Shown here: positions 1-9,375 of the stretch, piece by piece
Layout of the letters: the number at the start of each line of letters is the position of its first letter
Numbering within the stretch: position 1 is the stretch's first letter
From: Sedimentisphaerales bacterium
Lineage (GTDB): Bacteria; Planctomycetota; Phycisphaerae; Sedimentisphaerales; SG8-4
Direction: 5' to 3'
Assembly (NCBI GenBank): GCA_016932895.1
Contig: JAFGCA010000621.1
Coordinates: forward strand, 1-9,375
DNA length: 9,375 nt
Translations under genes and position numbers: made by a program
The notes under the pieces: generated by a model
The model's database searches: none
Seen by the model: only the letters and a program-made list of their open reading frames with translations
Told to the model about the DNA's origin: nothing

Positions 1-1
1 G

Positions 2-436
2 GAGTCGGCCGGCCAACCGGCCTATGTCACCGAGTTCTACGATGCCTTCATGACTGGCTTCGATTTGATGACCAATGCCGGCGCGGTTCCCGGCGAGTGG
101 TTCGTCCTGGACTACCATGCCGCGGAGGTCGGTCTGTGTTACGCGGGATTGTACGATTACGCTTTCAGCGTCGATAGCCCTGTTGAAACCCTGTTGTTCA
201 ACCAGATTCCGTCCCGCGATTTCGACGGCGACACGACGGTCAATTTCATGGATTTTGCCCTTCTGGCCTCCCGCTGGGGGCAGCAGAACCCATCCGATCC
301 CAGTCTCGAAATGGCGCTCGACTTGGATGGCGACGGTGCCATCGGCACGTCCGATCTGGCCCTTTTCAGCGAATTCTGGCTCGAACGCACCGACTGCAAC
401 GAGCCTGCCACTGATCCGAACACGTCCATTCTCTGA
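2..436 (+). CDS. Exported protein with C-terminal dockerin-like domain (3' end only)
   Basis: The frame is open from base 2, so the gene starts before the window; 144 residues and a TGA stop (434-436) are visible. The last third holds two calcium-loop repeats. The first starts at DFDGDTTVNFMDF (218-256) and is followed by a small/hydrophobic helix ending in SRWG. The second, LDGDGAIGTSDLALF (about 323-367), ends in EFW. This D-x-D-G-D-x-x-(V/I)-x(3)-D pattern, repeated with an aromatic-rich helix, is that of type I dockerin-like domains. In Phycisphaerae such domains commonly sit at the C terminus of large secreted proteins. In the loops, the aspartates would bind calcium. The part before the repeats (from SAGQPAYVTEFYDAF on) is not a family I recognise, so the activity of the whole protein cannot be told. 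Confidence is high for the dockerin-like end and absent for the rest. Confidence 0.85.
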   Translation, partial: ESAGQPAYVTEFYDAFMTGFDLMTNAGAVPGEWFVLDYHAAEVGLCYAGLYDYAFSVDSPVETLLFNQIPSRDFDGDTTVNFMDFALLASRWGQQNPSDPSLEMALDLDGDGAIGTSDLALFSEFWLERTDCNEPATDPNTSIL

Positions 437-531
437 GTGGGCCCGAACGCCCGCCAACCGCCAACGTCCAAAAAAAACCTCAAATCTGGCAAATTTGTTG
501 TCCACATTTGAGCGTCGAGAAACGCCTTCTT

Positions 532-549
532 CCTTTTGGGGCCAAAAGG
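532..549. repeat. Inverted repeat upstream of the C39-like gene
   Basis: CCTTTTGG and CCAAAAGG are perfect 8-bp arms separated by GG. The repeat lies 77 bp before the start codon of the C39-like gene. No T run follows it and no clear -35/-10 pair sits next to it, so it could be an operator or a leader hairpin but is not an obvious terminator. The rest of the 437-613 gap also has A-rich and CAAAT/ATTTG stretches (about 466-508) and nothing I can name. Confidence 0.35.
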
Positions 550-613
550 TCCGCCGGGTTTCGGCCGATGTCCTGGCCAAACACGGTTGCGTTCTTTCAC
601 ACAAGTCCTTGGG

Positions 614-621
614 AAGGAGGT
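614..621 (+). promoter_or_regulatory. Strong Shine-Dalgarno deciding the start of the C39-like gene
   Basis: AAGGAGGT ends 4 to 5 nt before the ATG at 626. The reading frame stays open upstream to 536, but the ribosome site and the signal peptide that begins directly at 626 both point to this start. Confidence 0.85.
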
Positions 622-625
622 AATT

Positions 626-2425
626 ATGAGAAGCACCCGTACAATTGTTGTTCTTGCGACGACTTTCTATCTGTTTCTGGCTGCCGTGGCTTCAGGGCAG
701 AGAGTGCTGGAAAGGGCGGAGATTCTGGAAATTTTTCAGGAACTGACCGATCAGCCTCGCAAGACGTGGGTTCCGGCCGGCACCATTGAGGCGGTGCATC
801 GGGAACACGTCCCTGCCAGGACCGACGACTCCGCCCGGATCAGCAGCGAAATCGAAGAGCGGGTCCGGACATACCTGAACGGCACCAGCAAGGTTGAACT
901 GTCCGAGGACCTGCAAAAGCTCAAGCTCGATGCCATTCCCTTCAACGTACGCTACGAATTGGCCAACGAGTACACGATGAACTCCACGGTTGTTGTAAAG
1001 TACGACGGGAGCAGGTTTTACTGGCAGATCGACGTGGACTCGCGCCAGGACTCGGTGCAGCCGAACCCCGAGCTGGCGGGCAATTTCATGGTCAAGAGCT
1101 TCGATCTGAACTGGAACCGCAAGCGGGTCTTTGCCTGGGATGGGCAGGCGTACACGACTTACACCGCTTCGGGCAACCACGCTATCGTGGACGCGGCGGG
1201 CCGGTTCCCTCGCGGCGTGAACGGCCCCCTGACGGCGGGGCTGGTCCCCTGGGGGCACAATCACTTCAGCTATGACAAGCTCGGTGCGGCCGAGGTCTCG
1301 GCCTCGGAAGTTCTCCTGGACGGAATCTCGCAGATTCAGATGACCGTGGACTGGGCGGACGGTGCCTCGGCCACGTTCAATCTCGATCCGGCCAAGGGAT
1401 ACGCCGTGACCTCCTGTACGCTGCCGGTCACGTTCGAAATCGTCGCGGTGTACAACTGCTCTGACTACCGGCAAGTCGCCGGAAGGTGGGTTCCGATGTC
1501 CATTCTGGTCGAGCGGCGAAATGCCATAACCGATGCACTGTTGCGCTCGGATCAGTGGACGATCACGTCCCTTGACGGCGCCCTTCCGCAGGGGGACGCC
1601 TTCGGAGTGGGCCTCCAGGCCGATGCGCGGGTCGAGTACCTCTCGACGGTCACCGATGAGCCGGCGGTCTACACGTACTCGCACAGCGTCGACACCGAGC
1701 AGCTCCTGGCCGAGCGGCTGACCTACGCGGCTTCAGGGGACGCTCTGCGCCAGAACTGCGCCACGGCTACTCTCAAGCAGGCCGCTCTGGAACTGGGAAA
1801 ACCCATCCCGGATAGCACCCTGGCCGCGCTCGTGGGAGAGGCGGGACAGACGAGCTTGTACAACATGAAGCAGGCGGCCCGGGGGGCGGGCTTGTATTGC
1901 CGCGCCGTCCAGACCGACCTGGCGACGCTCAAGACGTTGGGTGAGGTCAAAGCGATCCTGTACATCCCGGGAGAGAGCCACTTCGTCCTGCTCGATCGCG
2001 TCGATGACCGCTACGTCTGGCTGATCGATCTGACCAGCGACGAGTTCTACTACCGCCGGAGCGTGGACTTCTTTCCGATGGAGTGGTCGCAGGGCGTTGC
2101 GCTGCTGCTTTCCAGTCAGCCTGTGACCGCAACGCTTTCCGATATCGACGACGCCACGCTCGGCACGCTGGTCGGCGCCGACGGCTGGGACTGCACCAGG
2201 GTGATCCAGGACGAGTACATCTACTTCTGCGACGACTTGCCGGGCGGATGCGAAGGGACGTACCGATATCACTGGCCACGGTATGGCTGCGAGCCGGCCC
2301 CGGCGGGCACCTGTACGACCAAGATGATGGTCCGTTACCAGGAGAGCCCCTGTATTCCCGACCCGGTCTATTATTGTACGATCACCTGTGAATGGTTCTA
2401 CTACTATATGCGGGCCTGTAAGTAG
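626..2425 (+). CDS. Exported protein with C39-like peptidase domain and Cys-rich tail
   Basis: The product has 599 residues. Residues 1-25 form a signal peptide (MRSTR, then a hydrophobic stretch ending ASGQ). Residues 26 to about 365 are a beta-rich region that I do not recognise. Residues about 370-500 resemble the C39 papain-like fold: Cys378 (NCATATL), His452 (SHFVLLDRV), Asp468 (LIDLTSD) and a closing EWSQGVALLL. The Cys-His spacing of 74 and His-Asp spacing of 16 fit C39 domains, which cleave leader peptides. The glycine that usually follows the cysteine is Ala, and the position six residues before it, usually the oxyanion-hole Gln, is Asp372, so catalysis is uncertain. Residues 505-599 form a tail with nine Cys (523, 535, 542, 555, 563, 576, 584, 588, 598) and many Tyr, probably disulfide-bonded outside the cytoplasm. 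There is no ABC or membrane domain, so it is not a bacteriocin exporter. The prepilin-like gene downstream could be a partner. The C39-like call is fairly sure; the role is unknown. Confidence 0.75.
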   Translation: MRSTRTIVVLATTFYLFLAAVASGQRVLERAEILEIFQELTDQPRKTWVPAGTIEAVHREHVPARTDDSARISSEIEERVRTYLNGTSKVELSEDLQKLKLDAIPFNVRYELANEYTMNSTVVVKYDGSRFYWQIDVDSRQDSVQPNPELAGNFMVKSFDLNWNRKRVFAWDGQAYTTYTASGNHAIVDAAGRFPRGVNGPLTAGLVPWGHNHFSYDKLGAAEVSASEVLLDGISQIQMTVDWADGASATFNLDPAKGYAVTSCTLPVTFEIVAVYNCSDYRQVAGRWVPMSILVERRNAITDALLRSDQWTITSLDGALPQGDAFGVGLQADARVEYLSTVTDEPAVYTYSHSVDTEQLLAERLTYAASGDALRQNCATATLKQAALELGKPIPDSTLAALVGEAGQTSLYNMKQAARGAGLYCRAVQTDLATLKTLGEVKAILYIPGESHFVLLDRVDDRYVWLIDLTSDEFYYRRSVDFFPMEWSQGVALLLSSQPVTATLSDIDDATLGTLVGADGWDCTRVIQDEYIYFCDDLPGGCEGTYRYHWPRYGCEPAPAGTCTTKMMVRYQESPCIPDPVYYCTITCEWFYYYMRACK

Positions 2426-2450
2426 AAGGAATTCTGCTTACCACTCGCCG

Positions 2451-2489
2451 CAAAGGCAGACAGGGAGGACAAGTCCTTGTCTGCCTTTG
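2451..2489 (+). terminator. Long hairpin after the C39-like gene (possible terminator)
   Basis: CAAAGGCAGACA (2451-2462) pairs perfectly with TGTCTGCCTTTG (2478-2489). Inside, AGGAC (2466-2470) pairs with GTCCT (2473-2477) around an AA loop, leaving only GGG (2463-2465) bulged. This makes 17 pairs starting 25 bp after the stop codon. There is no clean T run after it (TGCTGCGCTGCC follows), so it may act as a weak or Rho-assisted terminator or as an mRNA 3'-end stabiliser. It insulates the C39-like gene from the promoter at 2507. Confidence 0.6.
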
Positions 2490-2506
2490 TGCTGCGCTGC
2501 CTTTGC

Positions 2507-2535
2507 TTGATTCAGGACAAGCTCCATTCTATAAT
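2507..2535 (+). promoter_or_regulatory. Sigma70-like promoter for the prepilin-like gene
   Basis: TTGATT (2507-2512), 17 bp spacer, perfect TATAAT (2530-2535). Transcription would begin near 2541-2543, that is 1 to 3 nt before the ATG at 2544, so the mRNA would have almost no 5' leader. Confidence 0.7.
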
Positions 2536-2543
2536 GGAAAGGC

Positions 2544-3341
2544 ATGAGATCATCGGGGTTTACGCTTGTCGAGTTGTTGGTTGTCATCTCCGTCGCGGCG
2601 CTGCTGGCGGCGCTGCTGTTTCCCGTGCTCGCCAGCGTGCGGGAACAGGCCCGGGCCACTGTCTGCGGCACGCGGATCAGGAATCTGACCACGGCTCTCC
2701 TGACGTACGAAGCGCAGCACGGCTCGTTTCCTCACGGTCATGGCGGTCTGGGCAAGGGCCCGCCGCCCACGGGGTATCTCGGCAATCCTGTTGTCGACCG
2801 CATGGGATGGTGGTGGTTCAATCTTGCCGAGGTTGTTGAGAGCAGGTCCTGGCGGGACTTGGAGATATTGAGATGTCCGTCGCGGCGACAGGAGAACCAA
2901 CGATTGGAGCCCGATATTCTCTGCGGCAATTACGGCGCCAACTGGTCCTTGTGCAAGAGCACCAGTTCGCCGGGACCCTATGCAGATGAGTTCGTGGGGA
3001 GCCCTTTGTCCAGCACGGACGTGCCTGAGCCCGGCGCCACGCTGCTTCTGGTCGACAGCGGGTACAGCCTGATCTCCTGGTGGCACGCGGCCGAGGAGCC
3101 GCCCGTGGCGTTCGGCAGTTCGATCCAGGACGCCGCCTATATCCCCGGCCTGGAGATCAACAAGGATCGAGAATTCTGGCCCGGCCAGGCACGCGACGCG
3201 ATCGGCGGACGACATCCCAACAGAACCGTCAACGTCGCGTTCGTCGACGGCCACGTCGCCCGAAAAAAGGCCGGCGAACTGCTCGTGGAAAAAGCGGGAG
3301 AGGACGACTACGATTACAGTCCCCTTTGGGGTCCTAAATAG
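2544..3341 (+). CDS. Prepilin-like (type II secretion/DUF1559-like) protein
   Basis: The product has 265 residues. It opens with a class III prepilin signal, MRSSG then FTLVELLVVI: cleavage by a prepilin peptidase is expected after Gly5, with Phe6 as first mature residue and Glu10 as the conserved +5 glutamate. The hydrophobic helix (about 6-27) would anchor it in the membrane and drive pilus-like assembly. The C terminus has RHPNRTVNVAFVDGHV, the histidine-to-DG motif of the large planctomycete family of pseudopilin-like proteins; here ten residues separate His and Asp-Gly. The middle is probably a globular domain and has a short GHGGLGKGPPPTG loop. The start follows from the prepilin signal. 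No good Shine-Dalgarno precedes it (GGAAAGGC only), consistent with the very short leader. It overlaps the convergent anti-sigma gene by 8 bp. Family call is secure; the specific structure it joins is unknown. Confidence 0.9.
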   Translation: MRSSGFTLVELLVVISVAALLAALLFPVLASVREQARATVCGTRIRNLTTALLTYEAQHGSFPHGHGGLGKGPPPTGYLGNPVVDRMGWWWFNLAEVVESRSWRDLEILRCPSRRQENQRLEPDILCGNYGANWSLCKSTSSPGPYADEFVGSPLSSTDVPEPGATLLLVDSGYSLISWWHAAEEPPVAFGSSIQDAAYIPGLEINKDREFWPGQARDAIGGRHPNRTVNVAFVDGHVARKKAGELLVEKAGEDDYDYSPLWGPK

Positions 3342-5004
3342 GCGCTGCCGCCCCGTCAGCAAAACGCTCGGCAATGGCAGCGCGAATCTCACCTTCCGTC
3401 GGATAGCCGAACTCTCTTCTTGACTGATACTCCCATCCTCCCTCGGCCGAATACCTGCGGAACAGTACCGTTTTCCTGGGACGTTTGGTTTGCGCGTCGA
3501 TCACGACTTCCCACTTTGCTTGATAAGCGCGACCCCCGCCGTCGGCCACGTTCCACGTGAGCTCATATGTTTCAATGCCCTCGGTTTCGTCTTGAGTCAC
3601 CTGGCGCCACTGGTGATCGACGGGGATGCCGGCCAGCGTGATTCCCAGACAGCCCTCCATAATACTCCGCGCGCCTTCATATTCCCGCTCAGGCAGCAAC
3701 GTAGTCTCTGTGGTTTCCGGCGCGACATTAGCGAGTGTCTTCGTTTTCGCGCGCATATCATACAACGCGTATCCACTGCCATCGGTCATCATGAAGACAC
3801 GCGGACGCCAGGAAACCCAGCGCTGCTGGATAGGCTCCGTTTGGCTTGAATGAAACAGTTGGACATGGACGTTGGCGGCTCTGGCGAAGGCGTTGGCGAT
3901 TTCTTCGGGGCCGGTGCCCGAGGCGCTGCGGGTCTGAACGAACAGCAGGATGGCCAGGGGGATCACGGCGGCCAATGCGGCGACCTTGACGAACGGCTTG
4001 ATCGCGGGGCGGAGAATCCGTCGCCTCGGTCTCGTCCGGGCCCGCGCGGCCGGGCGCAAGCGCCTTGTTCCAGGTTCGGCAGCCCCCTCAACGACGCGCA
4101 CGTCAATTCCGTAGCGGGCGTACCGGTCGTTTTTGTCTGCCCGGACCCGCCTGCCCCGGTCCTTCGCGGCATAGACAGTAACCGTTTGCGAATCGGCCCG
4201 CTCGGCGATGTCGAAGAGCGTTCGATGCAGCACCTGCACTTTCTCGAGACAGGCCGGACACGCCCACACGTGGGCGGCGGTAGCTGATTCGGTCTCGGCG
4301 GCCGTCAGGCCGAAGGGAATGACGCAGTCGAAGATGTCGGCCGGGTGGAGGCCGTCGCATGCAGATACCGCCGCGTGCGGCCCTGCGGCCTGACGTTTCT
4401 CCAGCACAGCCTCCCGGTGTTCGTAAAGGAGGGCCCGACACGGCGGGCACACGCACAGGTGGTCCCATATTTCGGCGGCGATTCCCGCCGGCGGCTCCGA
4501 TCCCAGAGCGGCGATACTCGCCTGCGCCCGCGGGCACATCGCGGAATTCCCCCGTGGCCCTTCGCCGAAGAGCCGGCTCAGTCGGGCCAACTGCTCGGCA
4601 TGCAGGTTCAGGTCCCGGATCGCCTCCAGATCCGCGGCGCACTGAGGGCAGTTGTCCACATGAACCGTGATCGGCGTGGGGATCCTGATTTGCTCCGAAG
4701 GCATCGAAAGGGCCGGCAGGAACGGCTTGACCTGCGCGCAGGTCACCCGTTCGTCGAGGTACTCGAAGTGGAGGCTCAGTGCATCGATCAGTCCCGCGTC
4801 GTCCCGGCCTCGGTCAGTCGCGCCGCCGGTCTCGGACTCCGCAAGCATCCCTTCCAGCCGCTGTAGGGCCGATTGGCAGTGTGTGCAGCCTTTGATATGA
4901 CTGGTTATGGGCTCTGGGATAGCAGGGTTGTTCGGGTTGGCCTGGAAGTCGTAGTAGTACGGCTCCGCATCCCTGCATGAGGCCCCTCGGTTCAAAGCCA
5001 CCAT
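3334..5004 (-). CDS. Membrane anti-sigma factor with four zinc-finger (ZAS-like) modules
   Basis: The product has 556 residues and is encoded 9 bp after an ECF sigma gene, the usual place for its anti-sigma factor. The cytoplasmic part carries four H-x3-C-x2-C motifs: H36/C40/C43, H115/C119/C122, H182/C186/C189 and H245/C249/C252. Each is preceded 25-29 residues earlier by another Cys (10, 89, 157, 216), giving four C-x(24-28)-H-x3-C-x2-C units where typical anti-sigma factors have one. An Arg-rich linker (about 283-335) leads to a single membrane helix (about 338-356, VAALAAVIPLAILLFV). Residues 365-556 would lie outside the cytoplasmic membrane; this beta-rich region resembles a LolA/RseB-like sensor fold only loosely. 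The ribosome site GAGGG overlaps the TGA of the sigma gene, so translation is probably coupled. By analogy it would hold the sigma factor inactive until an envelope signal arrives. The signal is not evident. The pairing is secure by context; the four-finger count is read directly. Confidence 0.85.
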   Translation of the reverse strand: MVALNRGASCRDAEPYYYDFQANPNNPAIPEPITSHIKGCTHCQSALQRLEGMLAESETGGATDRGRDDAGLIDALSLHFEYLDERVTCAQVKPFLPALSMPSEQIRIPTPITVHVDNCPQCAADLEAIRDLNLHAEQLARLSRLFGEGPRGNSAMCPRAQASIAALGSEPPAGIAAEIWDHLCVCPPCRALLYEHREAVLEKRQAAGPHAAVSACDGLHPADIFDCVIPFGLTAAETESATAAHVWACPACLEKVQVLHRTLFDIAERADSQTVTVYAAKDRGRRVRADKNDRYARYGIDVRVVEGAAEPGTRRLRPAARARTRPRRRILRPAIKPFVKVAALAAVIPLAILLFVQTRSASGTGPEEIANAFARAANVHVQLFHSSQTEPIQQRWVSWRPRVFMMTDGSGYALYDMRAKTKTLANVAPETTETTLLPEREYEGARSIMEGCLGITLAGIPVDHQWRQVTQDETEGIETYELTWNVADGGGRAYQAKWEVVIDAQTKRPRKTVLFRRYSAEGGWEYQSRREFGYPTEGEIRAAIAERFADGAAAPI

Positions 5005-5016
5005 CGCAATCCCTCA
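5005..5016 (-). promoter_or_regulatory. Shine-Dalgarno overlapping the sigma stop codon
   Basis: Read on the minus strand, TGAGGG contains both the sigma-factor stop TGA (5016-5014) and GAGGG (5015-5011), 6 nt before the anti-sigma ATG at 5004-5002. This suggests translational coupling that keeps the two proteins in proportion. Confidence 0.6.
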
Positions 5017-5589
5017 TTCAATCGCCAAAATCGCTCTGAGACGCCTGATTCCTGAGGATAAATGTCGCCGTGCTGTTTGCCGGGCGATGCCCATCTCGGC
5101 CGCGATTTCGGAAAGACTGTAATTATCCCGATACCGCATGGTAACAGCCTGCGACTGTCTCTGTGTCAGCTGCCTCGCGAGCAAGCCGAACAGTGAATCT
5201 GATTCCTCAGTTTCCAAGAAGGCGTTTGTCGGAGTCTTTTTGTTGACTGAAATCCGGATTTTTTTTGAATATTTTTTCAAATAGTAGCGATAGCTCTGTC
5301 GCCGGCGGGCCGAATCGAGCACATCGTTGGAAATGGCGCGGTAGAGATAGCTCCTGACATTGTCCAGACGCTGCGGCAGGGGTTTGCATACGAGCCTCAG
5401 AAAGAACTCCTGATAGAGATCCTCAACGTGCGATTCGTCGTTGGTCTGGAACCGGATGACTGCGCGTATAAAGGACCCGTGCTCTGCAAAAACTCTTGCG
5501 GCCGCATCAACTCTGCCGCGGGTGCATTTGGCGTTTGTGCCAAGTTGTACCACAGTTGCTTGCTCCCCGGAGACCCCTTGGGCTCCCAA
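5014..5589 (-). CDS. ECF-type RNA polymerase sigma factor
   Basis: The product has up to 191 residues. Region 2 spans about residues 30-98 (VEDLYQEFFLRL, then NVRSYLYRAISNDVLDSARRR), which binds core polymerase and the -10 element. Region 4 spans about 136-188 (LTQRQSQAVTMRYRDNYSLS, then a helix-turn-helix EIAAEMGIARQTARRHL), which reads the -35 element. They are joined by a Lys/Tyr-rich linker (99-122) encoded by an AT-rich patch with A8 and A6 runs. The start is uncertain. The longest frame begins with TTG at 5589 and has no ribosome site. GTG at 5553 has GGGGAG 9 nt upstream and would give 179 residues; I prefer it slightly. No C-terminal extension is present. It is co-transcribed with its anti-sigma factor from the promoter at 5646-5673. 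That promoter looks housekeeping, so classical autoregulation is not obvious. The target genes are unknown. Confidence 0.9.
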   Translation of the reverse strand: MGAQGVSGEQATVVQLGTNAKCTRGRVDAAARVFAEHGSFIRAVIRFQTNDESHVEDLYQEFFLRLVCKPLPQRLDNVRSYLYRAISNDVLDSARRRQSYRYYLKKYSKKIRISVNKKTPTNAFLETEESDSLFGLLARQLTQRQSQAVTMRYRDNYSLSEIAAEMGIARQTARRHLSSGIRRLRAILAIE

Positions 5590-5614
5590 AACACGCTAAG
5601 AAGAACGTCACGGG

Positions 5615-5633
5615 TGAGATGGAGCACATCTCA
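5615..5633. promoter_or_regulatory. Inverted repeat at the start of the sigma-factor mRNA
   Basis: TGAGATG (5615-5621) and CATCTCA (5627-5633) are perfect 7-bp arms around a 5-nt loop. Relative to the predicted start of transcription near 5639 it covers about +6 to +24, so it could be a repressor operator or a 5' mRNA hairpin. No protein can be assigned to it. Confidence 0.45.
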
Positions 5634-5645
5634 AACGCCTGTTGC

Positions 5646-5673
5646 ATTATACCACTTGGCTGGAGAATTGCAA
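5646..5673 (-). promoter_or_regulatory. Sigma70-like promoter for the sigma/anti-sigma operon
   Basis: On the minus strand TTGCAA (5673-5668), 16 bp spacer, perfect TATAAT (5651-5646). The start of transcription should lie near 5639, leaving a leader of about 50 nt (TTG start) or 86 nt (GTG start). Confidence 0.65.
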
Positions 5674-5701
5674 CCGCCTTGCCTTGACGGGGTGGCGGTC
5701 G

Positions 5702-5719
5702 GCCGGGAAACGCCCCGGC
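5702..5719. repeat. Short GC hairpin between the divergent promoters
   Basis: GCCGGG (5702-5707) and CCCGGC (5714-5719) are perfect 6-bp arms. It lies between the sigma-operon promoter and the ilvB copy 1 promoter. The rest of 5720-5823 shows nothing that I can name. Confidence 0.25.
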
Positions 5720-5823
5720 GGGCGTCTGTGAAAATATCCTGCCACCCGTAGCTGTCCAGGGTCCAAGACAGTGATGCCCGAACGATTGCACAAACACGCC
5801 GGCGGCATCTGCTGGGAATTGAA

Positions 5824-5853
5824 TTGACAGCGCCGGGTGAATTTACGTATACT
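5824..5853 (+). promoter_or_regulatory. Promoter of ilvB-like copy 1
   Basis: Perfect TTGACA (5824-5829), 18 bp spacer, TATACT (5848-5853, five of six consensus bases). Transcription would start near 5860, leaving a leader of about 218 nt before the ATG at 6078. Copy 2 has the same -35 and the same spacer length. Confidence 0.75.
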
Positions 5854-5859
5854 TTAGGG

Positions 5860-6077
5860 GAACTTGCCAGGAGGCAGGTTTATAACCTGGTTCATCCCGA
5901 GAGTTCGGGATGGTTGCGCTGTTGTGGCCGGGGAGGTATCTTCGGGCCGACGGGTCGCTCTTCGAAGCAGGAGCGGCTGGTTGCCTGGAGCAGCCCCGCA
6001 AGGCCACAGCGAGCCGGGACAGCCAAAGGGCCCCTGACGGTAGGAGCCCGACGAGTTGGTCAGGAAAGGAAAGTACC
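5860..6077 (+). promoter_or_regulatory. Structured mRNA leader of ilvB-like copy 1 (candidate cis-regulatory RNA)
   Basis: No conserved reading frame lies in this leader. Predicted stems are P0 (CATCCCGA 5893-5900 with TCGGGATG 5905-5912), P1 (5921-5929 with 6002-6010, nine pairs), P2 (CTTCGGGC 5940-5947 with GCCTGGAG 5983-5990, two wobbles), P3 (GTCGCTC 5954-5960 with GAGCGGC 5971-5977) and a last hairpin (6028-6035 with 6042-6049, loop GACGGT, one C-A mismatch). P2 and P3 lie inside P1, like an aptamer. CCTGA (6033-6037) can instead pair with TCAGG (6060-6064), next to the ribosome site AGGAAAGGA (6062-6070). From 5893 on, the leader aligns with that of copy 2, offset 2076-2077. It would control translation or mRNA stability of copy 1. 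The ligand or factor is unknown, and I see no T-box GGTGGNACCGCG motif. Confidence 0.65.
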
Positions 6078-7808
6078 ATGCAATCGAAGTCTCCCTCCGC
6101 AGCCGGTCCGCCCGGCCCCCCACGTTCTGCAACCGGTGCCGAAATCATCGTCGAGGCCCTTCTGCGCCAGGGCGTCGACACCGTCTTCGGCTACATCGGA
6201 GCGTCCGTATTGCCTTTGTTTGACAGGCTTTACGACGCGCCGATCCGTTTCGTGGTTCCGTGCCACGAACAGGGTGGTTGTCACATGGCCGACGCCTACG
6301 CCCGCGCCGGCGGCAAGGTTGGCGTCGTCATTGCCACCAGCGGGCCGGGGGCCTGCAACCTCGTTACGGCTCTGGCTACGGCCATGATGGATTCCGTTCC
6401 CCTGGTCGCCATCACCGGGCAGGTTCGCACCGACCTGATTGGCGACGATGCTTTCCAGGAGGCCCCGGTCACGGGGATCACACGCCCCGTGACGAAACAC
6501 AACAGCATCGTCAAAGACGTAAGGCATTTGGAGAAAGCGATTTACGAGGCTTTTTACATTGCCTCCACGGGCCGGCCCGGGCCCGTTCTGATCGATTTGC
6601 CCGTGGATGTCGAATTCGGCGCGTGTCCGGCCTGCGGGTTGCAGGAGGTGGATCTGCCCGGCTACGGCATCCCCGCTGCGGGCCACGCAGGTCAGATCGC
6701 CAGGGCGGCCGGGGCGATCCACGGGGCCCGGCGCCCGGTTCTTCTGGCCGGGGGCGGCGTGATCGCTGCAAATGCGACCCGGGAGTTGAGGGATTTGGCC
6801 CGAAAAGCGAATTTGCCCGTGACGATGACTCTGATGGGGCTGGGCAGCTACGACCAGCGAGACCCGGCGTCGCTGGACATGCTGGGTATGCACGGCGCGG
6901 CCTATGCCAACCTTGCGGTCCAGGAATGTGACCTGCTTGTCGCCGTAGGGGCCCGCTTTGACGATCGTGTTACGGGAGATCCGGCGCGCTTCGCGCCGCA
7001 AGCGAAGATTATCCATATTGACATCGATCCGTCCAACATATCGAAAACGGTCCGCGCCGATATCCCCATCGTCGGCGATGCGAAGGCGGTTCTGGCGGAT
7101 TTGGCCGCACGGGTGGAAGGGCGTTCGAGAGAGGCCTGGTTGGCCCGGATTGCCGATTGGAAGCGCCGGTGCGCCACCGGGTACGACCGCCAGGGCGGTG
7201 CGATCAAGCCGCAGTATGTGATCGAGCAGTTGTACCGCCAGACCGACGGCGAAGCGCTGATTACCACGGGAGTGGGCCAGCATCAGCTGTGGGCCGCCCA
7301 GTTCTACAAGTTCAGGCGGCCGCGACAGCTCATTACCTCCGGCGGGTTGGGGACGATGGGCTTCGGCCTGCCCGCCGCCATCGGCGCCCAACTCGCCCGA
7401 CCGGACGCGACCGTCATCGACATCGACGGTGACCACAGCTTCAATATGACTATGGCCGAGCTGGCGACCGCCGTCCAGAACGATCTGCCCGTCAAGGTCT
7501 GCATCCTCAACAACGGCTACATGGGGATGATCCGCCAATGGCAGGAGCTGTTCTACGAGAAACGCTACGTTCACAACTGCCTGGCCAATCCCGAGTACGC
7601 CGATTTCGCCCGGGCCGTGGGCGCCGTCGGCATCACGGTCGATTCGCCGGACGCCGTCGAGCCCGCCATCGAGCGGATGCTCGCCGAAACCGGGCCGTGT
7701 GTGGTCGATTTCCGCGTCGACGCCGAAGAGAACGTCTGGCCGATGGTCCCGGCCGGGCGGGGGCTGCACGAAATGGAAGGCGTCGAGCTGCTCCAGAGAA
7801 CCATGTAG
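6078..7808 (+). CDS. ilvB: Acetolactate (acetohydroxyacid) synthase catalytic subunit, copy 1
   Basis: The product has 576 residues, the usual length for AHAS large subunits. It uses thiamine diphosphate, Mg and FAD to join two pyruvates, or pyruvate and 2-oxobutyrate, in the first common step of valine, leucine and isoleucine synthesis. The N-terminal ThDP domain holds catalytic Glu64 (HEQGG), SGPGACN (88-94) and DAFQE (124-128). The middle domain has the AHAS hallmark GARFDDRVTG (291-300). The C-terminal domain has GVGQHQLWAAQFY (398-410) and the Mg/ThDP motif from Asp452 to Asn478-Asn479. Odd points compared with copy 2: GYIGA (38-42) instead of GYTGG, Cys62 instead of Arg before HEQG, and GDH at 451-453 where GDG or GDA is usual. 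An ATG at 5910 is in frame, but the 6078 start has AGGAAAGGA 7 nt upstream and matches the start of copy 2. The GYIGA and Cys62 changes make it the more diverged copy, and it could have altered kinetics or substrate use. The family call is secure. Confidence 0.93.
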   Translation: MQSKSPSAAGPPGPPRSATGAEIIVEALLRQGVDTVFGYIGASVLPLFDRLYDAPIRFVVPCHEQGGCHMADAYARAGGKVGVVIATSGPGACNLVTALATAMMDSVPLVAITGQVRTDLIGDDAFQEAPVTGITRPVTKHNSIVKDVRHLEKAIYEAFYIASTGRPGPVLIDLPVDVEFGACPACGLQEVDLPGYGIPAAGHAGQIARAAGAIHGARRPVLLAGGGVIAANATRELRDLARKANLPVTMTLMGLGSYDQRDPASLDMLGMHGAAYANLAVQECDLLVAVGARFDDRVTGDPARFAPQAKIIHIDIDPSNISKTVRADIPIVGDAKAVLADLAARVEGRSREAWLARIADWKRRCATGYDRQGGAIKPQYVIEQLYRQTDGEALITTGVGQHQLWAAQFYKFRRPRQLITSGGLGTMGFGLPAAIGAQLARPDATVIDIDGDHSFNMTMAELATAVQNDLPVKVCILNNGYMGMIRQWQELFYEKRYVHNCLANPEYADFARAVGAVGITVDSPDAVEPAIERMLAETGPCVVDFRVDAEENVWPMVPAGRGLHEMEGVELLQRTM

Positions 7809-7896
7809 GTGTAACGCGGAGAACCGCCGCAACGCCATCAACCCGAGAGATAACGGGTAGAAACACTGGAGAAGGTGAAGCGAAAGGTCGAAAGTA

Positions 7897-7926
7897 TTGA
7901 CAGCATGGAAGTACCCGGTATATGAT
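7897..7926 (+). promoter_or_regulatory. Promoter of ilvB-like copy 2
   Basis: Perfect TTGACA (7897-7902), 18 bp spacer, TATGAT (7921-7926, five of six consensus bases). Transcription would start near 7933. The stretch before it (7809-7896) holds only weak stems such as ACCCG/CGGGT (about 7842-7859) and no convincing terminator, so read-through from copy 1 is likely as well. Confidence 0.7.
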
Positions 7927-7932
7927 GCCGGC

Positions 7933-8154
7933 CCTCGTGCGGGGTGTTGCCCGCATGAGACCCTGACGTGTCCCGTACGGTCGGGACGGTTACGGAGTCG
8001 TGGCTTGGGCAGTATCTTCAGGTGCGGCGGCGGTTCTTCACAAGCAAGAGCCGGCCGGCAGCCTGAAACGCCTTACAACGCCGCGGCCTGCCGCAATGAC
8101 GAACGGGCTCCTGACGGTAGGAGTCCTAAACGTTACTCAGGAAAGGAGTTACGT
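7933..8154 (+). promoter_or_regulatory. Structured mRNA leader of ilvB-like copy 2 (same candidate RNA as copy 1)
   Basis: The leader is about 222 nt, almost the same length as in copy 1. An extra 5' stem is TGCGGG/CCCGCA (7938-7943, 7950-7955). The shared stems are P0 (GTCCCG 7970-7975 with CGGGAC 7982-7987), P1 (GTCGTGGC 7997-8004 with GCCGCGGC 8080-8087), P2 (TTCAGG 8017-8022 with CCTGAA 8062-8067), P3 (GGTTCTT 8032-8038 with AAGAGCC 8046-8052) and the last hairpin (8105-8112 with 8119-8126, loop GACGGT). TCCTGA (8109-8114) can instead pair with TCAGGA (8137-8142) at the ribosome site AGGAAAGGAG. Blocks GTATCTTC (8012-8019) and AAGCA (8042-8046) are identical to copy 1. Function is inferred from position: control of copy 2 expression at translation. 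Confidence 0.65.
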
Positions 8155-9375
8155 ATGACAGCCAAGTCTCGCGCTTCGGCGCCTGCGCCCACAGAATCCA
8201 CCGTCAAAACCGGCGCCCAGATCGTCGTCGATACCCTGCTCGATCTCGGTGTCGATACCATGTTCGGCTACACCGGCGGCGTGGTGCTGCCCCTGTTCGA
8301 CCGGCTCTTCGACGCGCCGATCCGTTTCATCATTCCGCGCCACGAGCAGGGCGGCTGCCACATGGCCGACGCCTACGCCCGCGCCAGCGGCAAAGTCGGC
8401 GTCGTCCTGGCCACCAGCGGTCCCGGGGCCTGCAACCTGGTCACCGGCCTGGCCACCGCCATGATGGACTCGACCCCGATGGTCGCGCTCACTGGGCAGG
8501 TCCGCACCGAGCTGATCGGCAACGACGCTTTCCAGGAGGCCGACACGACGGGCATTACCCGGCCGATCACGAAGCACAACTGCATCGTCAAGGACGTCAA
8601 GGACCTGGCCCGCACGGTCCGCGAGGCCTTCCACATCGCCTCTACCGGTCGGCCGGGGCCGGTCCTGATCGACCTGCCCGTCGACGTCGAGGTCAGCAAA
8701 TACCACAGCGACGGCAAAGAGACCCCGGACCTGCCCGGATACCGGATTCGCACCCAGGGCCATGCCCGGCAGATCTCCATGGCCGCCGACGCCATCAACA
8801 AGTCCGAGCGGCCCGTCCTCTACGTCGGCGGCGGCGTCATCATCGCCAACGCCGCCGAGGAGCTGCGGACGCTCGCGGAGAGGGCGCACGTGCCCGTCAC
8901 GATGACCCTGCTGGGCCTGGGCAGCTACGACCAGCGGAAGCCCGAGTCGCTCGACATGCTCGGCATGCACGGCTCGGCCTACGCCAACTACGCCGTCCAG
9001 GAGTGCGACGTGCTCATCGCCGTCGGCGCCCGCTTCGACGACCGCGTCACCGGCAAGATCGCCACGTTCGCCCCGCACGCCAAGATCCTGCACATCGACA
9101 TCGACCCGTCGAGCATCTCGAAGAACGTGCACGTGGATATCCCGGTCGTCGGCGACGCCCGGCACATCCTCACCGAGCTGACGAAGCAGGTCGAGCACCG
9201 CCCGCGCGAGGCCTGGTTCAGCAAGATCGCCGACTGGAAGCAGAAATATCCCTTCCGCTACGATGCGAAATCGCCGAACATCAAGCCGCAGTACGTCATC
9301 GACGAGGTCTGCCGCCAGACCAACAGCGACGCCATCGTCGCCACCGGGGTCGGTCAACACCAGATGTGGTCGGCC
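8155..9375 (+). CDS. ilvB: Acetolactate (acetohydroxyacid) synthase catalytic subunit, copy 2 (3' end outside window)
   Basis: The frame is open from the ATG at 8155 to the window end: 407 residues, so about 170 are missing, including the Asp-x(24-27)-Asn-Asn Mg/ThDP motif. It aligns without gaps to copy 1 over the whole visible length and is closely similar to it. It keeps the more usual forms of key motifs: GYTGG (38-42), Arg62 before HEQGG with catalytic Glu64, SGPGACN, DAFQE (124-128), and GARFDDRVTG (291-300). The start is set by AGGAAAGGAG 6 nt upstream and by the match to copy 1. Codon choice leans more strongly to C- and G-ending codons than in copy 1, which may mean higher expression. 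It has its own promoter and structured leader. It is likely the main biosynthetic AHAS, and a regulatory subunit (ilvN/ilvH) would be expected further downstream but is not in view. Confidence 0.93.
   Translation, partial: MTAKSRASAPAPTESTVKTGAQIVVDTLLDLGVDTMFGYTGGVVLPLFDRLFDAPIRFIIPRHEQGGCHMADAYARASGKVGVVLATSGPGACNLVTGLATAMMDSTPMVALTGQVRTELIGNDAFQEADTTGITRPITKHNCIVKDVKDLARTVREAFHIASTGRPGPVLIDLPVDVEVSKYHSDGKETPDLPGYRIRTQGHARQISMAADAINKSERPVLYVGGGVIIANAAEELRTLAERAHVPVTMTLLGLGSYDQRKPESLDMLGMHGSAYANYAVQECDVLIAVGARFDDRVTGKIATFAPHAKILHIDIDPSSISKNVHVDIPVVGDARHILTELTKQVEHRPREAWFSKIADWKQKYPFRYDAKSPNIKPQYVIDEVCRQTNSDAIVATGVGQHQMWSA

Follow-up and report, generated by a model that had tools for sequence, protein, structure and literature searches.

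A structured RNA leader of about 200 nucleotides precedes each of two tandem ilvB genes in the window analysed here, the whole 9,375-nucleotide stretch of contig JAFGCA010000621.1 (positions 1 to 9,375) from a Sedimentisphaerales bacterium (GenBank assembly GCA_016932895.1). The leader is an orphan structured cis-regulatory RNA and riboswitch candidate outside Rfam, uncharacterised so far, that appears to form nearly the whole ilvB 5′ untranslated region (5′ UTR) in one order of Planctomycetota, the Sedimentisphaerales. Its conservation, its structure, the promoter-like sequence ahead of it and the gene behind it are direct observations. Most likely it is a riboswitch-type switch for the branched-chain pathway, a reading to which we assign a probability of about one half. 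The leaders, their genes and their predicted promoters are as follows; R1 and R2 are the covariance models described below.

5885 to 6080, forward strand: structured leader, copy 1, from CCUGR to AUG; 165.3 bits with R1 and 102.7 with R2, part of both models
7961 to 8157, forward strand: structured leader, copy 2; 169.4 bits with R1 and 94.0 with R2, part of both models
6078 to 7808, forward strand: ilvB copy 1, biosynthetic acetolactate synthase large subunit, 576 residues; TIGR00118 equivalog, 794 bits
8155 to 9375, forward strand: ilvB copy 2, open at the window end; TIGR00118, 597 bits over 407 residues
5824 to 5853, forward strand: predicted sigma-70-type promoter, copy 1; TTGACA 5824–5829, 18-nucleotide spacer, TATACT 5848–5853, 11 of 12 positions
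7897 to 7926, forward strand: predicted sigma-70-type promoter, copy 2; TTGACA 7897–7902, 18-nucleotide spacer, TATGAT 7921–7926, 11 of 12 positions

A preliminary description of the window had proposed a duplicated, covarying RNA before genes for acetohydroxyacid synthase (AHAS), with some 60–65% identity and few indels between copies. Start codons included, the leaders are identical at 122 of 196 aligned positions (62.2%) with one gap column, and 5860–6100 and 7932–8180 each fold better than any of 200 dinucleotide-shuffled versions (z = −3.54 and −3.35). The five base pairs singled out in helices P0, P1 and P3 have the letters given there and all lie within helices of the family-wide model, the copy-2 pairs sitting exactly over their copy-1 counterparts in an alignment of 102 leaders. 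Two unpaired blocks had been described as fixed, and both GTATCTTC (5936 and 8012) and AAGCA (5965 and 8042) are indeed identical in the two copies, but the family conserves only part of the former, at two positions (A in 94 of 102 leaders, C in 93 of 102). AAGCA is found in just 12 of the 102 leaders and is therefore not a family signature. The element is also longer than had been supposed: a structured leader is present, but it extends from a hairpin near the predicted transcription start (~5860 and ~7932) and probably past the AUG. The family search, the ilvB neighbourhood and the covariation lend strong support to the central claim, that of a functional, covarying RNA associated with AHAS genes.

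Distribution and target gene

The starting scan of genome contigs comprised 80 ilvB loci, five of which, all from Planctomycetota, have a recognisable leader (L001–L005). Aligned with the two window copies, these already display the main architecture. R1, built from the seven sequences, finds nothing above 16.3 bits at the other 75 ilvB loci, and matches 117 of the 161 genomes of the Sedimentisphaerales at E ≤ 0.01. R2, built from 84 sequences, matches 122 of the 161 (one genome per species) at E ≤ 0.001, with one match only in 118 of them. Homologous leaders are thus present before ilvB in related genomes, as a functional RNA of this kind had been expected to show. In samples of the class and the phylum, 77 of 397 and 8 of 392 genomes match, every one a genome already positive in the order search; because these searches used stricter filters and scored only seven candidates per genome, weak relatives outside the order could be missed. 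An exact pattern search in viral contigs gave 0 matches, and a plasmid search for near-identical DNA gave three records with short matches.

A match to a known family had been named as an outcome that would make the RNA real but not new. Rfam 15 has no match within the leaders of the window (E ≤ 5), of L001–L005 or of 20 further loci (E ≤ 1), nor anywhere in L001–L006 (E ≤ 1); one tRNA-model match, in L182, lies outside the leader.

The family alignment (A3) holds 102 leaders from 100 hand-chosen sources, with L096, L097, L099 and L116 omitted, L148 and L211–L215 replacing shorter copies of the same matches, and the weak matches L192–L210 reserved as a test set. Of the 102, 100 are followed on the same strand by an ilvB match, counting L119, where it is just a 44-residue fragment. 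The two exceptions are L211, with 245 nucleotides of sequence left, and L181, with a 56-residue open reading frame (ORF) and no ilvB match in 890 nucleotides. The ilvB AUG directly follows the leader in most of the 102 loci. Leaders used in neither model (L192–L207) have ilvB downstream in 16 of 16, directly behind the leader in 14 and ~200 nucleotides further on in L198 and L199, and all six matches found with R2 only (genomes G029, G110, G120, G121, G123 and G150) lie upstream of ilvB by coordinates. Three very weak R1 matches (L208–L210) have no ilvB within the fetched stretch and were set aside as chance.

A single target gene and a usually single copy per genome favour a pathway-specific signal. 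The preliminary suggestion of feedback by a branched-chain metabolite fits, because the RNA is essentially restricted to regions upstream of ilvB; such a metabolite is a candidate ligand.

Helical architecture and covariation

5886–5890 (CCUGG) with 6060–6064 (UCAGG), forward strand: helix PX, copy 1; 98.0% of cells paired in the family
7962–7966 (CCUGA) with 8137–8141 (UCAGG), forward strand: helix PX, copy 2
5893 to 5912, forward strand: hairpin P0, copy 1; covarying
5921–5928 with 6003–6010, forward strand: helix P1, copy 1; covarying
5943 to 5987, forward strand: arm P3, copy 1; strongest covariation
6020 to 6059, forward strand: hairpin P4, copy 1, before the ribosome-binding region; a variable-length insert in the family, weaker in copy 1 by eye
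8097 to 8136, forward strand: hairpin P4, copy 2; inner stem GGGCUCC..GGAGUCC

Across the 41 pairs of A3, 89.2% of cells are paired, and 625 double changes are observed compared with 197 ± 20 after shuffling and 119–139 with the partners slid. Covariation in the wider alignment is also significant against a tree-based null (99 sequences): 11 pairs reach E ≤ 0.1, and each of the 17 highest-ranked pairs belongs to P3, P1 or P0. This null is our own script modelled on R-scape, with 40 null alignments, and is not R-scape itself. Because A3 and A4 are alignments fitted to R1, the P0, P1 and P3 pairs of that model carry some bias; PX, P4 and the outer P1 pairs are unpaired in R1.

PX is a newly predicted helix that would link the 5′ end of the leader to the ribosome-binding region. 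It pairs CCUGR near the 5′ end with the UCRGG that opens this region, and was proposed both by RNAalifold on the first seven sequences and by eye. Compensated variants occur as U-A in three sequences and C-G in one. P4 pairs UAAC with GUUUA just before UCAGG (91–100% paired at four positions, 87% at the fifth) and has an interior very variable in length. The linkers GUUACGG and CCGGAAUAAC are conserved at 68–100% per position. UAAC could pair with the upstream GUUA or with the downstream GUUUA. In the alternative pairings of GUUA, 91–97% of cells are paired per base pair when it is shifted onto AAU, compared with 76–97% with UAAC, and real covariation is seen in neither. Competition by a CCUGA inside the P4 insert, present in both window copies, was considered and discarded as not general, as it is absent from L001 by eye.

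The covariation bears directly on whether the leader could instead encode a peptide. Attenuation through an upstream ORF (uORF) has been proposed or shown for the ilvB-II, ilvB-OMG and ilvB motifs, which, in the available text of PMC10272879, were first riboswitch candidates or RNAs of unknown function and later read as uORFs. Among the 102 leaders, a GUG or AUG stands before GUUACGG in 81, and some ORF of at least five codons led by a Shine–Dalgarno (SD) sequence is found in 42. However, the distance from GUG/AUG to the conserved UAA is flat modulo 3 (36, 34 and 32 of 102), the first stop codon varies in position in every frame, and the SD-led ORFs are at scattered places among the rows listed. 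Codons for Ile, Leu and Val make up 21.2% compared with 17.7% and 17.2% in the other frames, and no peptide shared over the full leader appears among 30 translations listed. With no conserved uORF found in the 102 leaders and helices that covary as RNA, uORF attenuation is not supported and we regard it as extremely improbable.

A T-box-like leader sensing uncharged branched-chain tRNA is also very improbable. T-boxes are among the RNAs that control branched-chain amino acid genes in bacteria, including ilv operons of Firmicutes, and an A-N-C triplet in the internal loop reads AUC in many leaders. Yet the middle base of this triplet varies (T in 54, A in 29 and C in 16 of 102), unlike a fixed specifier, no T-box-like conserved block is seen by eye, and Rfam has no match in the leaders searched (those of the window, L001–L005 and 20 further loci).

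Transcript start and a hairpin past the AUG

5860 to 5881, forward strand: 5′ hairpin at the predicted transcript start, copy 1
7934 to 7959, forward strand: 5′ hairpin at the predicted transcript start, copy 2
6102 to 6116, forward strand: coding-region hairpin P5, copy 1; centre 2 nucleotides off the commonest in the family
8171 to 8182, forward strand: coding-region hairpin, copy 2, GCGC UUCG GCGC; off the family-typical position

Promoter-like hexamers scoring 11–12 of 12 precede 62 of 101 leaders and none of 101 shuffled sequences, and those scoring at least 9 precede 97 compared with 45; they lie at a median of 36 nucleotides upstream of the model start. Between the predicted transcript start and PX, 95 of 101 leaders have a 5′ hairpin, compared with 34 of 101 when shuffled.

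A further hairpin recurs inside the coding region, 20–40 nucleotides past the AUG, with a sequence that varies and a fold that is kept. Where ilvB follows the leader without a gap, 73 loci were usable and 33 of them have a strong hairpin with an identical centre, whereas 100 rounds of synonymous-codon shuffling average 8.1 such loci and never exceed 13. The shared centre thus concerns under half of these loci, yet is far above expectation. In class-B loci, defined by the distance from leader to ilvB (28 of the 102 rows, including L211 and L181, both without an ilvB match), a strong hairpin occurs in the scanned stretch in 25 of 28, compared with 31% in shuffles of all 102, and its centre varies, with no more than 5 of 28 sharing a position. 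Because this hairpin recurs, the RNA element probably spans the start codon.

An element that seems to flank the AUG on both sides recalls the operators of autoregulated proteins, which often do so. AHAS, as IlvB or the small subunit IlvN, or another RNA-binding protein could bind the leader and the coding hairpin and block translation; the single target gene would agree with this, and the gene for the acetolactate synthase small subunit (IlvN) follows ilvB in L002. At ~200 nucleotides and with many covarying helices, however, the leader is more elaborate than most known operators, and nothing found indicates a protein partner. We consider protein autoregulation unlikely, though it is one of the two main rivals to a metabolite-binding switch.

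Leaders before truncated or decayed ilvB starts

At ~20 loci, about a fifth, the leader precedes a truncated, decayed or doubled ilvB start. Behind it lies in some loci a short ORF that is an ilvB start, often ending soon after ..GYxGAxVxPLFD, and in others a decayed remnant or an in-frame extra start segment; the complete ilvB is mostly 150–320 nucleotides downstream, and more distant in a few. The AUG is lost in L155 and L169. These rows were picked by reading among the loci listed, initially 21 and later 20, with a strict set of 12 in which the ilvB start was judged lost. The leader helices of the 20 rows contain 103 double-change cells compared with 37.8 ± 5.3 after shuffling, and those of the strict 12 contain 49 compared with 20.8 ± 3.3; 0 of 500 shuffles reach either value. 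The excess comes mainly from P1 and P3, with little from PX. Continued selection on the leader RNA before decayed ilvB starts is therefore likely, if not proven, because the shuffles keep relatedness and some changes may predate the decay.

G011 has, in order, a leader, a 138-residue ORF, a second leader and a full ilvB. In G035, at a distance from the main ilvB, a second, dispersed leader (L225) is followed by a short fragment with weak similarity to the ilvB N-terminal part, and in G034 the sole leader found (L222) precedes a fragment of the same kind. Such leader-plus-fragment loci suggest partial duplication after which the control RNA was retained.

These loci also bear on a transcription-level variant, in which the structured leader, with a metabolite or protein as input, would chiefly affect how transcription elongates or how stable the RNA is, for example by way of Rho access, and not the AUG. 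That the helices still covary before a truncated or decayed ORF, with the full ilvB mostly 150–320 nucleotides downstream, would suit this variant, the second main rival. But PX reaches into the first part of the ribosome-binding region, and in most loci the ilvB AUG comes immediately after the leader. By eye, no T-run was seen behind the coding hairpins that were read, no terminator scan of the leaders having been made. We judge this variant decidedly unlikely.

In six loci (L141, L143, L149, L156, L185 and L189) the frame stays open from the leader AUG to the end of the full ilvB (629–658 residues) and takes in an additional N-terminal segment resembling IlvB; this may be chance read-through or a real N-terminal repeat. 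L156 also has a strong inverted repeat at 2444–2541, ~75 nucleotides upstream of the leader, which only sub-threshold microRNA models match. Inteins were considered for over-long ilvB ORFs in G034 and G038 and dropped; the stored sequence there has runs of unknown bases.

Proposed mechanism

The leader shares one general trait of riboswitches: its structure, which is conserved, covaries and resembles an aptamer, lies in the 5′ UTR of a metabolic gene. The ligand, the sign of control and the switching step given here are inferred. Behind the 5′ hairpin at the predicted transcript start, PX, P0, P1–P3 and P4 would join at a junction with the conserved linkers. A small molecule of the branched-chain pathway would bind the conserved junction or the internal loop and stabilise PX. 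Closed PX would hide the CAGG of the ribosome-binding region and lower ilvB translation, possibly downstream transcription too, and without ligand PX would open.

In the fold model (n = 99), forcing PX changes the energy by a median of −0.7 kcal/mol (quartiles −1.8 and 1.9), and its mean probability is 0.21, exceeding 0.5 in 17 of 99. Being near-isoenergetic yet nearly invariant, PX behaves as expected for a helix that needs a partner to form. PX and the two possible partners of UAAC may provide the exclusive states of an expression platform. Its closure is predicted to hide AGG and the next base (unpaired probability 0.49 to 0.21).

Several points weigh against a metabolite switch of this kind. 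The six bases that follow, mostly AAAGGA, stay open in the fold model when PX closes (unpaired 0.56 to 0.62), and a fully hidden ribosome-binding site is therefore not what the model predicts. PX and P4 show little covariation, with none in P4, because their letters hardly vary. A pure start-codon switch leaves unexplained both the truncated, decayed or doubled ilvB starts and the AUG-less L155 and L169. The effector could be a protein such as AHAS itself. Finally, IlvB is found at E ≤ 1e-100 in 138 of the 161 genomes of the order and the leader in 120 of these (lists compared), so that 18 ilvB-bearing genomes have no leader match at E ≤ 0.001. Of ten inspected, G053 is cut by the contig end and has a partial match of 44.5 bits, G075 has no upstream sequence and G113 shows no match in the ~170 nucleotides upstream of ilvB. 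Weak matches lie just before ilvB in G006 (26.2 bits), G148 (22.1) and G156 (12.2), and G133, G138, G142 and G155, with ample upstream sequence, show no leader in place before ilvB.

A more specific form of the metabolite-switch reading is possible, and we put it forward tentatively. The leader may be a new riboswitch class for a branched-chain metabolite such as leucine, valine or 2-oxoisovalerate, a unit that would cross the start codon so that an RNA hairpin partly shapes the IlvB N terminus. It may be kept as an autonomous control cassette, leader plus first ilvB codons, even before genes truncated after partial duplication. With an orphan RNA that is supported by covariance, occurs in 122 genomes and almost always precedes the same gene, the candidate ligands are few and sequences for testing plentiful; the coding hairpin and the leader-plus-fragment loci would widen ideas on where such elements end.

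The tandem ilvB pair and its surroundings

Both tandem ilvB copies score above the NCBIfam equivalog threshold for a biosynthetic acetolactate synthase large subunit, and each has its own promoter-like sequence and its own ~200-nucleotide leader. Tandem ilvB pairs on one contig occur in at least 10 genomes of the order, with a single leader match in each; the window, with two full leaders on two full tandem genes, is therefore an exception among the samples seen. This, like PX and the coding-region hairpin, goes beyond the preliminary description.

Protein identities point to an old duplication. Window IlvB copy 2 shares 82.9% of its residues with the second copy in the L001 genome and 67.4% with the first, and copy 1 is 73.9% identical to the first and 71.2% to the second. 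The second window leader is at most 65% identical to any other leader in A3 and looks like one lost elsewhere. Between both ilvB copies of the L001 genome (L237), a short hairpin and a GAAAGGAG site stand directly before the second copy's AUG and the long leader is absent; they are perhaps a leader remnant.

Upstream in the window, and transcribed away from ilvB, are a sigma-70 family gene (5014–5589, reverse strand; Pfam sigma-70 regions 2 and 4) and, behind it, a gene for 556 residues without a Pfam match (3334–5004, reverse strand). An ORF with a peptidase C39 domain (620–2425) is followed by a DUF1559 pseudopilin-like gene (2544–3341). Between them lies a long, mostly paired inverted repeat with 18-base arms (2449–2491), terminator-like and detected only through a sub-threshold microRNA match.

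Comparison with known systems

Literature searches on ilvB riboswitches in Planctomycetes, Sedimentisphaerales riboswitches and Phycisphaerae noncoding RNA motifs found nothing, most subscription journals and all preprints being outside their scope, and the terms leucine, valine, isoleucine or branched-chain amino acid riboswitch found no paper in the full-text literature searched.

T-box leaders are also long structured leaders of amino-acid genes, but the present RNA has no Rfam match and its only candidate specifier triplet varies. The general class of translational riboswitches that act through a helix near the start codon likewise combines a conserved multi-helix junction with a helix overlapping the ribosome-binding region. 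The present leader differs in that PX covers only the first bases of the region, an extra hairpin lies in the coding region and the ligand is proposed from gene context.

Branched-chain amino acid genes are under RNA-level control in many bacteria. Leader peptides and ppGpp (guanosine tetraphosphate) are forms of such control in the parts of PMC10272879 open to us. The ilvB-II, ilvB-OMG and ilvB motifs are, like the present RNA, structured leaders before ilvB, and ilvB-II is reported once per genome, as the present leader usually is (both from the same portions of PMC10272879). The available text treats ilvB-II as a uORF (PMC10272879, PMC11109978) and puts forward a uORF for ilvB-OMG and the ilvB motif as well (PMC10272879). 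In contrast, no conserved uORF was found in the present leader and its helices covary; it is set apart from these motifs by their description in that text, not by alignment. The ppGpp riboswitch is likewise an RNA switch before branched-chain biosynthesis genes and controls ilv genes in Firmicutes (PMC10272879, available sections). The present RNA has no Rfam match. Its only target is ilvB, usually once per genome, whereas ppGpp riboswitches frequently regulate more than one mRNA according to the same sections (PMC10272879).
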